From the NCBI GenBank assembly GCA_028284345.1, contig JANQRY010000006.1, positions 1 to 64,000 on the forward strand: a stretch of DNA of 64,000 nucleotides. Reading direction: 5' to 3'. The stretch's first letter is position 1. Each line of letters starts with the position of its first letter. The stretch is from Hyphococcus sp. (GTDB lineage: Bacteria; Pseudomonadota; Alphaproteobacteria; Caulobacterales; Parvularculaceae). The position numbers and the translations under genes were made by a program. This document shows positions 7,108 to 55,804 of this stretch, in pieces. Under the pieces are notes generated by a model, which was not told the DNA's origin, ran no database searches, and saw only the letters and a program-made list of their open reading frames with translations.

Positions 7108-7240
7108 GTCATCCCGGATGCAATGCAGCATGGAATGCTGCTTTGCTAATCCGGGATCGCGCGTACTATGCATTGCGCTTGTGGAGGGCGATCCCGTGTC
7201 AGCGGCGCGTCATTTCATGCCGCGCAGCACACGGGATGAC
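7108..7240. repeat. Intergenic palindromic element bounded by GTCATCCCG / CGGGATGAC
   Basis: A 133-bp element made of two nested hairpins fills the gap between the convergent prpC and dps genes. The ends GTCATCCCG and CGGGATGAC are inverted repeats. The left half folds through CCCGGAT with ATCCGGG, and the right half through ATCCCGTGT with ACACGGGAT. A related copy lies at 55684-55804. No open reading frame is apparent inside. It resembles non-autonomous, REP or MITE-like dispersed repeats and could also terminate both genes. Confidence 0.7.
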
Positions 7241-7253
7241 GGTCTGGTTGGCG

Positions 7254-7727
7254 CTACTGCGCCATGGCGCGCAACATCCACGCCGTCTTTTCGTGCGTCT
7301 GTATGCGCACGGTGAGGAGATCGGCGCTCGCCGCGTCGCCCGCTTCTTCAGCAATGGCGAGACCGTCGCGGGCGCGTTTGATCAGCGTTTCGTGATCCGA
7401 CAACAGCCGCTCGACCATGGTTGTCCCGGATGGCGGGCTGGCGTCGTCGTTGTCGAGCGCCGTTAACTCCGAGAACTGTTTGCCGCTGGTGGGGGCAAAG
7501 ACGCCGAGGGCGCGAACCCGTTCGGCGATCTCGTCAAGCGCGGTCCACATTTCATTATATTGTTCTTCGAACATCACATGCAGCGTGTGAAATTGCGGGC
7601 CTGTGACATTCCAGTGATAGGCATGCGTCTTCATATAAAGGGTGTATGTATCGGCGAGCGTGTTGTTGAGCGCCTCAGCGACCGATATGCGCGCTTTTTC
7701 AGCGATTCCAATGTCGACAGTAGACAT
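7254..7727 (-). CDS. dps: Dps family ferritin-like DNA protection protein
   Basis: A 157-residue Dps. Dps forms 12-mers that oxidise and store iron using hydrogen peroxide and protect DNA. The ferroxidase segment HAYHWNVTGPQFHTLHVMF, followed by EEQYNEMWTALDEIAERVR, carries the conserved His, Asp and Glu ligands shared between subunits. The start is well supported by AAGGAGGAG 7 bases before the ATG. There is no long Lys-rich N-terminal tail, so direct DNA binding is uncertain. An AT-rich dyad upstream (7802-7823) is a plausible operator for iron or peroxide control. Confidence 0.93.
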   Translation of the reverse strand: MSTVDIGIAEKARISVAEALNNTLADTYTLYMKTHAYHWNVTGPQFHTLHVMFEEQYNEMWTALDEIAERVRALGVFAPTSGKQFSELTALDNDDASPPSGTTMVERLLSDHETLIKRARDGLAIAEEAGDAASADLLTVRIQTHEKTAWMLRAMAQ

Positions 7728-7801
7728 AGCAAGCTCCTCCTTGAATTCTGTTCGTCTGTGATGCGCCCCAACATAGGGTGCGGATAAAAATCGATCAAAT
7801 A

Positions 7802-7823
7802 GATAATATTAAAATTTATTATC
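7802..7823. promoter_or_regulatory. AT-rich inverted repeat upstream of dps
   Basis: GATAAT-N10-ATTATC sits about 75 bases upstream of the dps start in a stretch much richer in A+T than the surroundings, with extra ATCGAT words around it. It has the same arms as a classical Fur box but a wider centre, so the regulator is not clear. Confidence 0.35.
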
Positions 7824-7859
7824 GATTAGATCGATAATCCCGTAGTCGCGCCTGCGTCC

Positions 7860-9352
<1,493 letters not shown>

Positions 9353-45758: not shown

Positions 45759-46501
45759 TCCGCCGCTTTGGCGCGTCCGCCGCCCATAATCTTCCGCTTC
45801 CAGAGCACGCCGGCGGGCACGCCGATGAGCGTCGGCAAAATCCACGGCAGAAGCTTCAACGGCGAGTCGCCAAGCAGCGGATTGAAGAAGGAACTTGCGC
45901 CGAACACGAAAAACGCCGTGTGAAAGGCGATGCCCGCGCCGAGCATGCCGTCGAGATGTTCAATGACCCAGCGCTGCGGGTCGTCGTTCCCTTTTCGCTG
46001 AAACGACAGCGTCTCCATGAAAATCAGGACGCCGAGCGGGCTGAGCGCAAACAGGATGATCGCATTCGACGGCCGGAAGGCGATTGCGTATCCGATCAGC
46101 GCCAGGCTGGCGATGAGGGCGAGCATCGCCCGGGCGTAGGCGAAGATGGCGCGGGCTCCCGGGCTTGGTCCGCGAAAGCGGATTGCCGACCGGCCTTTCT
46201 CAAGGATCGCGAACGTAACGATGGTGAGATAGCCGAGGAAAAACACTGCGCCGATGCGGGCGTCGTTCAGCACGACCTCGTGATCGCCGGAAAAGGCGTC
46301 CAGCAAGACGGCGGTGACGCCGAAGAGGGCGGTGGCGACGACGAGCATGCCGGACCAGTAAAAGGCTTTGCCGGCGCGAACATGCCATGCACTGCCTTTC
46401 TTCGAAAAGATCTGTATCCAGAATAATGTCAATACGAAAAACCCGAAGCCGATATGAATCGGCAAGGTCACGCTTCGAAAGTCATTCAGGATTTCACCCA
46501 C
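45755..46501 (-). CDS. Multi-pass membrane protein co-transcribed with PadR regulator
   Basis: A 248-residue protein with seven predicted helices. It begins at GTG 46501 with GAGGGGCGG upstream. Conserved-looking polar positions sit in membrane segments: PIHIGFGFFVLTLFWIQIF and WHVRAGKAFYWSGML near the start, and IEHLDGMLGAGIAFHTAFFV near the end. The first part is weakly reminiscent of DUF2306-type proteins; I do not claim membership. As the first gene of a PadR operon it may be a transporter or membrane enzyme answering the same signal. Confidence 0.7.
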   Translation of the reverse strand: MGEILNDFRSVTLPIHIGFGFFVLTLFWIQIFSKKGSAWHVRAGKAFYWSGMLVVATALFGVTAVLLDAFSGDHEVVLNDARIGAVFFLGYLTIVTFAILEKGRSAIRFRGPSPGARAIFAYARAMLALIASLALIGYAIAFRPSNAIILFALSPLGVLIFMETLSFQRKGNDDPQRWVIEHLDGMLGAGIAFHTAFFVFGASSFFNPLLGDSPLKLLPWILPTLIGVPAGVLWKRKIMGGGRAKAAE

Positions 46502-46527
46502 AATCCGCCCCTCGCTATATCTGACTT

Positions 46528-46555
46528 ACTATATAATTTATTATATAGCTGTCAA
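46528..46555 (-). promoter_or_regulatory. Promoter of the membrane protein-padR operon with embedded palindrome
   Basis: On the minus strand TTGACA (46555-46550) and TATAGT (46533-46528) are spaced by 16 bases. Between them and running into the -10 lies a perfect palindrome at 46529-46548: CTATATAAT, two T, ATTATATAG. Start of transcription would be near 46521, giving a leader of about 20 bases. A protein bound there would block RNA polymerase; PadR encoded downstream is the obvious candidate. Confidence 0.7.
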
Positions 46556-46661
46556 GTTGTGTAAAAAGGGCGGGTGGCAAGTTGCGAAGATCGTTAGGTT
46601 CTAAAGAGGTGCCGTTTGAGCCTTAGAGCCGGTCGCAATCCATTAAGACCCAACAGACTTT

Positions 46662-52802: not shown

Positions 52803-53620
52803 CGCAAGCGCCGGCGAAAAAAGAGCGCTCCGACGAAGAGGAGATTGAGGCGTCGGCGGCGCCGCTGCTTGATCATCTGACGGAACTGCGCTCGCGTCTG
52901 ATCGTGTCGTTCTGCGCTATCGGCGCCGCCTTCGTCGTCTGCTTTATCTTCTCCGTGCCGCTTTATGAATTTCTCGTCGTGCCGTTCAGGAATGCGGTCG
53001 TTGCGGCGGGCGCGGAACCCAAACTTTACTTTGCGCCGCTTGAATTTTTCTTCACCCGGGTGAAGCTCGCAATGTTGGCGGGCGTTGCGATTGCGTTCCC
53101 GGTGGTGGCGTATCAGCTCTATCAGTTCGTCGCGCCGGGCCTTTATCGCAAGGAACGCGCCGCCGCGCTGCCGTTCCTCCTCGCCATGCCGGTGCTGTTC
53201 ACGGCCGGGGCGGCGCTTGTCTACTATGTGTTGATGCCTTTCGTGATGCAGTTCGCAGTGGGCATGGAGCAGGATGCGGTCGAGGGCTCGGGCGTTTCGA
53301 TCGAACTGCTCACCCGGGTCGGCGACTATCTCACCCTGACGACGACGTTGATCATGGCGTTCGGGTTCGCCTTTCAGTTGCCGGTGTTTTTGACCCTCCT
53401 GGCGCGGGCCGGGCTGATCGATGCGGCGTTCCTCAAACGCCACCGCAAATACGCCATTGTCGGCATCTTTATCTTCGCCGCCTTCCTGACGCCGCCCGAT
53501 CCCATCAGCCAGGTCGTACTCGGCTGCTCAATCATCGCGCTCTACGAGATTTCGGTGATCGCGGTCGGCATGGCGGGCCGGCGGGAGGAAATGGAAGAAG
53601 CCGAAGAAAGCGCGGCGTGA
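52799..53620 (+). CDS. tatC: Sec-independent protein translocase subunit TatC
   Basis: A 273-residue protein with six transmembrane helices. Conserved stretches are PLLDHLTELRSRLIVSFCAI, with the essential Glu near the N-terminus, YFAPLEFFFTRVKLAMLAG, FVAPGLYRKERAA and FLTPPDPISQVVLGCSI. It forms the core receptor of the Tat system. The TGA stop overlaps the GTG start of the DUF559 gene by 4 bases. Confidence 0.96.
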   Translation: MTQAPAKKERSDEEEIEASAAPLLDHLTELRSRLIVSFCAIGAAFVVCFIFSVPLYEFLVVPFRNAVVAAGAEPKLYFAPLEFFFTRVKLAMLAGVAIAFPVVAYQLYQFVAPGLYRKERAAALPFLLAMPVLFTAGAALVYYVLMPFVMQFAVGMEQDAVEGSGVSIELLTRVGDYLTLTTTLIMAFGFAFQLPVFLTLLARAGLIDAAFLKRHRKYAIVGIFIFAAFLTPPDPISQVVLGCSIIALYEISVIAVGMAGRREEMEEAEESAA

Positions 53621-54021
53621 CGCGTTTCGACAGAACGCCGCAAAAATCCAAACGCGCAAAAGAATTGCGGAATAACTTGACGGATGCCGAACGCAAGCTT
53701 TGGCGCGCTCTGAAGGGAAAGCAACTTGAAGGGCTGAAATTTCGGCGACAACATCCGGTCGGTCGGTACATTCTAGATTTTTATTGCCCGGCCGTTCGCC
53801 TCTGCGTCGAAGTCGATGGCGGCCAGCACAATGAACCGGAAAACATCAAGCGCGATCAGACTCGGTCGGATTGGCTCGCGGCGCGTGGAATAAGCGTTGT
53901 CAGAGTTTGGAATTTCGAAGTCTTCGAGAGTTTAGAGGGTGTCATTGAGACAATTCTCGATCATGTGCGTGTCGCGAGGAACGACATAGAGATGGGTCGC
54001 GACGATATTCCCTCCCCTTGA
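53617..54021 (+). CDS. DUF559 domain (Vsr-like endonuclease fold) protein
   Basis: A 134-residue protein of the DUF559 family, related in fold to very-short-patch repair endonucleases. The order is typical: AKELRNNLTDAERKLWRALK, LKFRRQHPVGRYILDFYCP, then LCVEVDGGQHNEPENIKRDQ, where the Asp and Glu resemble nuclease active-site residues, and ARGISVVRVWNFEVF. It starts at a GTG that overlaps the tatC stop. In relatives I recall tatC followed directly by serS, so this gene together with the inverted repeat after it looks inserted. Nuclease activity is not shown for most members. Confidence 0.85.
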   Translation: MTRFDRTPQKSKRAKELRNNLTDAERKLWRALKGKQLEGLKFRRQHPVGRYILDFYCPAVRLCVEVDGGQHNEPENIKRDQTRSDWLAARGISVVRVWNFEVFESLEGVIETILDHVRVARNDIEMGRDDIPSP

Positions 54022-54109
54022 AAAGGGGAGGGTTAGGGAGGGGATCAACCGCCGGACATTGATCCCCACCCGAAATCAGAGATTTCGACCTCCCCTTTTC
54101 AAGGGGAGG
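54011..54109. repeat. 99-bp element with perfect 21-bp inverted repeat (CCTCCCC type)
   Basis: Arms 54011-54031 and 54089-54109 are exact reverse complements, and each arm is itself a hairpin of CCTCCCCTT with AAGGGGAGG. The centre contains CGAAATC-AGA-GATTTCG. The element starts inside the last codons of the DUF559 gene and ends 49 bases before serS. A related element in opposite orientation lies at 61205-61350: both share GGTCGAAATC and GATTTCGGGTG. Confidence 0.72.
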
Positions 54110-54158: not shown

Positions 54159-55679
54159 ATGTTTGACATGAAATTCATCCGCGAAACGCCGGACGCGTTC
54201 GACGCCGGCCTCGCGCGACGGGGCCTCGGTCCCCGCGCCGGCGAAGTCCTGGCGCTCGATGAAGAGGCCCGGAAATACACCCACGCCCTCAACGAGTTAC
54301 AGGCGCGGCGTAACGCAGCCTCCAAGGAAATCGGTCAGGCGAAAGCCAAGGGCGACGAAGATCGCTTCAACGAACTGCGCGCGGAAGTGGACAGCATCAA
54401 GCAGCAGATCCCGACGGCGGAAGCGGAAAAACAAAAGAAGCTTGACGCCATAAACGACATTTTGTCGGGCCTGCCGAACCTGCCTGCGGAGGACGTTCCA
54501 GAAGGCGAAGACGAAGCGGCGAACGTCGAAGTCCGCCGCTGGGGGGAACCGGCCGAGCAGAACGGCGCCAAAGAGCATTTCGATCTCGGCGAAGCGCTGG
54601 GGCAGATGGATTTCGAAACGGCGGTAAAAATGTCGGGGTCGCGTTTCGTGCTCTTGAAAGGTCAGCTTGCGCGGCTGGAGCGGGCGCTCGCGGGATTCAT
54701 GCTCGATCTGCATACGAATGAGTTCGGCTACACGGAGTGTCAGCCGCCGCTGCTTGTAAAGGGGCATGCGCTTTATGGAACAGGACAGCTTCCAAAATTC
54801 GAGTCCGACCTATTTAGATCGTATAGCCACGAGCAACGCGAGGATGTGCGGCTTCGCTTGAAGGCCTTTGAAGGGCTTAAAGACCAACAACGATTGCTAA
54901 CAGAAATGCACCAAATTCGCTCTATTATTGTTGCGTCGAAGGATTCTGAACAAGCCAAAAATCTGCAAGCTGAAATAGACAAAAAAAGCACTGAAGGACG
55001 AAAACTCAACGACATCACAGCGCAAACCATCAACAAGTTAAATGAACTCGTATCTGCTGTTACCACCGAGCACTGGCTCATCCCCACGGCCGAAGTCTCG
55101 CTCACCAATATCGTCCGCGAAGAAATCCTCGCCGCCGAGGATCTGCCGCTGCGCTTTACCGCCTGGACGCCGTGCTTCCGGTCCGAGGCCGGCGCCGCGG
55201 GCAAGGACACCCGCGGCATGATCCGCCTGCACCAGTTTTCGAAAGTGGAACTGGTCTCCATTACCGCGCCGGATCAGTCGGTCGCCGAGCATGAACGCAT
55301 GACCGAATGCGCCGAGGAAGTCCTGAAGCGCCTCGAACTGCCTTATCGCACCATGGTCCTTTCCACCGGCGATATGGGATTCTCGGCACGCAAGACCTAC
55401 GACATAGAGGTCTGGCTCCCCGGGCAGGAGCGCTATCGTGAAATTTCGTCCTGCTCAAACTGCGGCGACTTTCAGGCCCGACGCATGAACACGCGCTTTC
55501 GCGCCGCCAGCGAAAAACAGACCCACTTCGTCCATACGCTCAACGGCTCCGGTCTCGCGGTCGGGCGGACGCTGGTGGCGGTCCTTGAAAACTATCAGCA
55601 GCCGGACGGGTCCATCGCCGTGCCGGCGGCGCTGCAAAGCTATATGGGCGGCGTGGAAAAAATTGAGGCGGCGAGTTGA
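54159..55679 (+). CDS. serS: Serine-tRNA ligase with an unusual internal insertion
   Basis: Charges tRNA-Ser with serine. The protein has 506 residues; ordinary bacterial SerRS has about 425-430. The N-terminal coiled-coil arm ([20 protein letters not shown]) and the class II core are normal: [72 protein letters not shown], and [20 protein letters not shown]. About 77 extra residues lie between Arg220 and Trp306, helical and charged, ending VSAVTTEH. The inserted DNA is about 42 % GC against about 63 % next to it. The catalytic motifs are all present, so the enzyme should work. See findings. Confidence 0.93.
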
Positions 55680-55683
55680 AGCC

Positions 55684-55804
55684 GTCATCCCGTGCGCAAT
55701 GCAGCGCGAAGCGATGCGTTGCAGACACGGGATCGGTATCGCGAGGTGAGATAGATCCCGTGTCTGCGCAGCAGCACGTTGTGCTGCGGCGCGCACGGGA
55801 TGAC
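55684..55804. repeat. Intergenic palindromic element bounded by GTCATCCCGTGCGC inverted repeats
   Basis: A 121-bp element between serS and surE. The ends, GTCATCCCGTGCGC and GCGCACGGGATGAC, are perfect 14-bp inverted repeats. Inside, AGACACGGGATC faces GATCCCGTGTCT, making two hairpins. It is the second copy of the family at 7108-7240. No reading frame of its own is likely. Confidence 0.72.

Follow-up and report, generated by a model that had tools for sequence, protein, structure and literature searches.

Why does the seryl-tRNA synthetase (SerRS) of a Hyphococcus species, a member of the aminoacyl-tRNA synthetases that count as textbook conserved enzymes, carry a long foreign-looking segment in its catalytic domain, and is this a peculiarity of one genome? 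Here, we address this question starting from a single 64,000-nt stretch of one contig (the window), in which the features of the serS gene lie as listed in Table 1.

A split catalytic domain in the only serS of the genome

SerRS loads serine onto tRNA, and the window gene is the single SerRS match in the host's 3.4-Mb genome, so serylation activity is expected of its product. TIGR00414 matches the protein at 513.3 bits (cut-off, 301.65) in two stretches, and solved SerRS structures likewise align to it in two stretches, with the overall SerRS fold present. Between these stretches lies a loop of 87 residues, in frame between LPKFESDLF and LIPTAE (residue 219 is the last of DLF and residue 307 the first of LIPTAE), ahead of what we take to be the serine-binding TXE segment. 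In the nearest sampled relative (G038/L095; Marinicaulis sp., Parvularculaceae), this loop has 7 residues, and the two proteins are identical at 197 of 219 residues before the loop and at 185 of 200 residues after it. The sequence-only reading of this DNA had proposed a foreign-looking in-frame insertion of about 77 residues; we confirm the insertion and place its net size at about 80 residues.

Table 1. Features of the serS locus, in window coordinates
Feature	Position	Strand	Basis
serS, seryl-tRNA synthetase, 506 aa	54159..55679	+	One intact ORF; TIGR00414; two-part match to solved SerRS
Variable loop with insert, residues 220-306, 87 aa, 45% GC	54816..55076	+	Loop measurement; 7 aa in nearest sampled relative
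5' flank, conserved codons exchanged along with insert	54750..54815	+	62% identity to relative, against 92% just upstream
3' conserved part, start	55077..55112	+	Alignment to relative: nearly unchanged

The loop has a GC content of 45%, compared with 61% and 63% in the gene parts on either side, and the G+C counts given earlier for two parts of the gene (93 of 220 and 38 of 60 bases) are exact. GC as low as in the former of these parts is reached in only 0.08% of 220-bp segments (10-base steps), and the lowest 210-bp GC dip of the whole window (30-base steps) coincides with the serS insert. The next-lowest dips, with 43 to 46% GC, are found at 7621-7830, 9061-9270, and 46381-46590. In 66-nt segments compared with the relative, identity falls from 92% to 62% directly before the loop and is 89% after it, which bears out the earlier remark on AT-rich codons 5' of the insert. 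Since the 3' conserved part is nearly unchanged compared with the relative, the right exchange border lies close to the end of the loop. As a candidate donor of the 5' tract, one locus (L286) gave the best match (73%), yet it is equally similar in other conserved segments (67 to 73%) and was rejected.

The absence of an insert from the nearest sampled relative, the low GC, the foreign 5' tract of about 66 nt, and the recurrence of inserts in other species together argue for a foreign origin. Of the earlier proposal of homologous exchange with a lower-GC donor, foreign origin by local exchange is therefore well supported, while the homologous nature of the event, by short-tract recombination, is what we infer. 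At the DNA and RNA level, we find no inverted repeat of at least 10 nt at 54760-55090, and RNA over the window insert folds worse than all of 200 shuffles. An antisense ORF of 162 codons (minus strand, 54773-55261) spans the insert and its flanks and shows no sign of being a gene.

The loop is a hypervariable site in Alphaproteobacteria

Loci of serS were gathered across the family, the order, and the class as well as from a named genome collection, and loop length was taken as the distance between two mapped anchors. In 260 loci, both halves lie in one frame (another three were dropped); these loci represent 228 distinct SerRS, a sample that is enriched for inserts, as split matches were fetched on purpose. 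Within it, the loop measures 6 to 12 residues in 125 SerRS (exactly 7 in 109), 13 residues in one, and 21 to 119 residues in 102. Counts by taxon are less affected by this enrichment. In the host's genus, 28 genomes were searched (three without a match and one with a partial one); a full serS is present in 24 species, and 8 of these have an insert. The split-match signature is seen in 47 of 150 genomes of the order, two of these by score only, and in at least 21 of 387 genomes of the class, where follow-up was limited to 40 genomes with weak or split scores. SerRS is contiguous in all 103 readable cases from other classes of the phylum (109 genomes, six of them not informative), so the phenomenon is, as far as sampled, alphaproteobacterial within the phylum. 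The loop is thus a hypervariable site in Alphaproteobacteria, and the earlier reading was wrong in scale: the insert is no one-off, and the site is a recurrent hotspot. The insert is also not an old trait of the lineage in the sense of one segment kept at normal GC across the order, as a search of 299 order genomes with the window insert returned, besides itself, nothing better than an E value of 0.018.

Inserts turn over, probably by local exchange

On a tree of 216 SerRS, built with the insert and 20 residues on each side left out, insert presence requires a minimum of 37 changes, 19 of them forced by well-supported branches. With shuffled labels the average is 71.5 changes, so the trait is partly inherited. 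Five Mesorhizobium SerRS that share 90 to 96% DNA identity away from the site carry five different loops, of 90, 77, 79, 71, and 53 residues. Upstream of these loops, identity over 60 nt is just 62 to 72%. In one metagenome-assembled genome (G302), an insert-bearing and an insert-free serS are present on separate contigs (L298 and L299), although a second species may be binned in; the two contigs share 66 identical bases and then diverge within the GTGQLPKF codons.

The compositional signature of the window insert recurs elsewhere. Of 99 inserts, 93 are GC-poorer than the gene around them, and the average difference is 11 points; this count, like the insert and flank counts, ignores shared ancestry. 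In addition, insert GC correlates with the GC of the gene that carries it (r = 0.45), so the inserts may be of long standing or have come from kin. Over the 20 codons upstream of the insert, third-position GC differs from that of the gene by -0.154 in 99 insert genes and by -0.013 in 121 insert-free genes, with corresponding values after the insert of -0.053 and 0.006.

For genes having a neighbor with at least 85% DNA identity in the gene body, we counted flanking segments whose identity falls short by more than 15 points, uncorrected for shared ancestry. Such a shortfall affects the 66 nt directly upstream of the loop in 9 of 32 insert genes compared with 2 of 33 insert-free genes, and the 66 nt directly downstream in 3 of 32 compared with 1 of 33; among the four segments farther away, it occurs in one, with 2 of 32, and in no other. 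A strong 5' tract is absent in 23 of the 32 insert genes, and individual pairs vary: the foreign tract is on the 3' side in L003/L024 and is hardly present in L080/L140.

What moves is the segment and not the gene, as the neighbors stay beside serS. We observe tatC-like genes beside 74 of 102 insert-bearing and 89 of 125 insert-free serS and surE-like genes beside 72 of 102 and 103 of 125, respectively, with many loci cut short. Controls are free of such changes. The gene for another class II synthetase, thrS, is matched without a break in 26 of the genus's 28 genomes and is split over contigs in the other two. Across the roughly 53 kb that are syntenic with the relative, serS alone among 112 matched window ORFs (called mechanically, several being antisense ORFs) is interrupted by a gap exceeding 14 residues.

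Around serS, the window holds several further features. A short lower-GC gene (53617-54021) sits between tatC and serS, and between it and serS, at 54011-54109, there are two palindromic copies of CCTCCCCTTNNNAAGGGGAGG, with none expected by chance. The gap between serS and surE (55684-55804) has inverted copies of GTCATCCCGTGCGC at its start and end, in the manner of an intergenic palindromic repeat; a similar GTCATCCCGTGCGC copy is present at 7227-7240, and the number of copies is near chance at up to two mismatches.

Most inserts are unrelated to one another

With phmmer at E < 1e-3, 72 of the 102 inserts are without a relative in the set, and the others group into a family of 15, a family of three, and six pairs; at least three of these groups span different bacterial families. 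No two of the eight inserts in the host's own genus are related by the same threshold. Iterated clustering, which left 64 of 103 single and merged 22 inserts, drew in doubtful members and was set aside for the stricter phmmer clustering.

Database searches were similarly unproductive. Pfam assigns no family to any of the 102 inserts at E 0.01, and at E ≤0.01 PHROGs match three and PADLOC one, approximately the chance level for 102 queries. The window insert finds no family in Pfam or NCBIfam (best E, 0.065 and 0.068), its best PDB match by sequence has an E value of 0.4, and in its own genome it matches only itself at E values up to 10. Among 385 genomes of the class, 13 others match at E 0.004 to 0.05; these hits are spread over assorted proteins, as expected of a query that is charged and helical. 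No relative of the window insert is found in viral contigs, in phages by protein or DNA, or in plasmids by DNA (one 27-base match, E 0.9), and a profile made from the family with the shared 50-residue insert likewise matches nothing in viral contigs. The window insert is therefore without a convincing relative anywhere searched.

Coding, selection, and predicted structure

The inserts behave as protein-coding sequence, with no in-frame stop in the 6167 codons of 99 inserts, compared with 262 and 416 stops in the two remaining forward frames. Ten sequences of genus g22 have a common insert of 49 to 50 residues and near-normal GC, with a dN/dS of 0.13 that lies between the values for the two body halves (0.15 and 0.08; approximate, with dS near 1). 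Purifying selection acts on this retained insert. An eleventh g22 sequence (G163/L258) carries a different insert of 66 residues.

In the AlphaFold2 model (74 sequences), the window insert forms a pair of antiparallel helices (residues 229-259 and 263-301), with a pLDDT of mostly 81 to 92 in the insert, 67 to 74 in blocks 221-240, and 70 in 291-300. The insert part of the model draws on one sequence and has lower pLDDT at its base, so the direction of the modeled arm is uncertain; what is predicted is a helical hairpin, with confidence at the tip. The bacterial SerRS among the PDB matches listed align over nearly their full own length (whole chains; 427 of 428 residues for E. coli 6r1m), so they have no counterpart of the arm.

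A proposed evasion of an inhibitor and its rivals

Unrelated in-frame domains of 21 to 119 residues have recurrently replaced one another at one site of an essential enzyme, and they are present, replaced, or absent between close species, sometimes together with tens of nucleotides of foreign flank. As a tentative explanation, with a probability of roughly 0.4, we propose that the alphaproteobacterial SerRS pre-TXE loop is an allelic cassette site, whose diversity is kept by evasion of a proteinaceous inhibitor. Alleles would arrive via short-tract homologous recombination. Less certainly, they would be kept diverse because each insert folds by itself into a knob or arm close to the entrance of the active site and so alters the SerRS surface. 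An inhibitor docking there, whether a phage protein or a toxin of a competitor, would be blocked, and rare shapes would win until the attacker adapts. The window insert might accordingly be pictured as a helical-hairpin shield beside the serine-binding loop. With unrelated inserts at one place, being different or bulky seems to be what counts, and this favors evasion of a protein binding that face of SerRS.

In support of a cassette site kept diverse by evasion, we count the hypervariable loop, the unrelated inserts, the at least 37 changes, the Mesorhizobium and G302 alleles, the lower GC, the stop-free inserts, the 5' foreign tract, the purifying selection, and the clean synteny and thrS controls. 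Against it stands that no attacker binding SerRS is known or came to light here, and that most insert-free relatives live without an insert. The ten g22 sequences that keep one insert fit a fixed function better than an arms race, with G163/L258 differing. In addition, insert GC tracks gene GC, the trait is clustered on the tree, 23 of 32 genes are without a strong flank tract, and shared ancestry is uncorrected. The broader proposition, that an essential translation enzyme is targeted by an unrecognized attacker and answers with an immune-like pool of exchangeable, unrelated shield domains, seems to us slightly less probable.

SerRS genes occur in seven Brevundimonas phage records, two of which were looked at. 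In vB_BpoS-Kikimora (L296, 4001-6031) and vB_BpoS-Bambus (L297, 4001-5856), the SerRS gene is close to a GcrA-like cell-cycle regulator gene, and the single phage SerRS loop that was read is a plain seven residues. Some phages of this class thus bring their own SerRS, a hint, not evidence, of conflict.

Partner docking and passenger diversity are the main rivals to evasion, with DNA-level homing weaker. The best placed of them, which we nonetheless consider unlikely, is that the insert recruits one of the lineage's own host proteins or tunes tRNA handling and changes with its partners. The purifying selection on the shared 50-residue insert and the hairpin modeled for the window insert, confident at its tip, are consistent with such a docking or regulatory domain, and other SerRS use catalytic domains for protein contacts, according to PMC10817482. 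One conserved partner is hard to square with 72 unrelated inserts out of 102 and with close species that have different ones or none, and relatives without an insert do without.

A somewhat poorer prospect is that the loop takes almost any in-frame foldable segment, shuffled by short-tract recombination with little effect on fitness. The inserts are indeed without a common sequence, and human insertion II, which by alignment coordinates would lie in the same loop, reportedly has a negligible role in aminoacylation (PMC10817482), so the place tolerates additions. However, no such behavior is seen in the thrS of the genus, in the 112 synteny ORFs, or in the SerRS of other classes, and there is purifying selection where an insert is retained.

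We consider it improbable that the protein is a by-product of homing at the DNA level, in which an endonuclease-like element would cut the upstream conserved serS codons and the insert with its recoded flank would be the resistant, spreading allele. The foreign tract is commoner on the 5' side (9 of 32) than on the 3' side (3 of 32), and the two G302 alleles part within the GTGQLPKF codons, as homing would have it. However, the L080/L140 insert comes with a hardly recoded flank, L003/L024 is recoded on the 3' side, and no nuclease gene is tied to the inserts. The 53617-54021 gene, which we take to be DUF559-like, was rejected as a driver, as such a neighbor is near 2 of 102 insert-bearing and 2 of 125 insert-free serS, including that of the insert-free relative L095. 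Finally, an assembly or sequencing fault, raised earlier as a refutation and suggested by the abrupt GC change only, is scarcely credible given an open frame with both conserved halves intact, 6167 stop-free insert codons, and the same place occupied in many separate genomes.

Comparison with known systems

Insertions in aminoacyl-tRNA synthetases are a known kind. To our knowledge, an essential cytoplasmic enzyme in which domains at one fixed site are often replaced, most of them by unrelated ones, has not been described, and a literature search covering mainly openly available journals found no account of such inserts in bacterial SerRS. That close species carry unrelated domains shows that the locus of a housekeeping enzyme can change fast, and local serS signals can be misleading for phylogeny and typing of Alphaproteobacteria. 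If an attacker drives the pattern, a class of phage proteins or toxins directed at SerRS would await discovery, and the unrelated inserts, dozens in number, would serve as ready-made probes in the search for it.

Inteins and homing elements occupy conserved sites of essential genes and resemble the serS inserts in being foreign in-frame segments at a conserved site with exchanged flanks, but the serS inserts are too short and too varied. The earlier exclusion of an intein holds up: Pfam finds no intein splicing or nuclease domain in the window protein (E 1) or in the 102 inserts (E 0.01), and the loop reads RSYSHEQ...VTTEHW, without the Cys/Ser/Thr start and His-Asn end of an intein. Rickettsia palindromic elements, which are related, repeated palindromic units found in frame in many genes, are also in-frame additions within essential genes of Alphaproteobacteria; in contrast, the serS insert has neither an inverted repeat nor a second copy in the genome and is confined to one site of one gene.

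The hypervariable loops of phage and bacteriocin receptors share with the SerRS loop a conserved scaffold, one variable place, and local exchange between relatives. These receptors are exposed at the cell surface and their attackers are known, whereas SerRS is a cytoplasmic essential enzyme for which we know of no attacker.

A further system is insertion II of human SerRS (G254-N261), which PMC10817482 describes for the cytosolic enzyme of higher eukaryotes, in the catalytic domain and near the active site. By alignment coordinates it would fall in the same loop of the catalytic domain (residue 304 of the window SerRS aligns with human residue 265). Insertion II is short and fixed in higher eukaryotes, whereas the alphaproteobacterial inserts extend over 21 to 119 residues, are mostly unrelated between species, and are often replaced.
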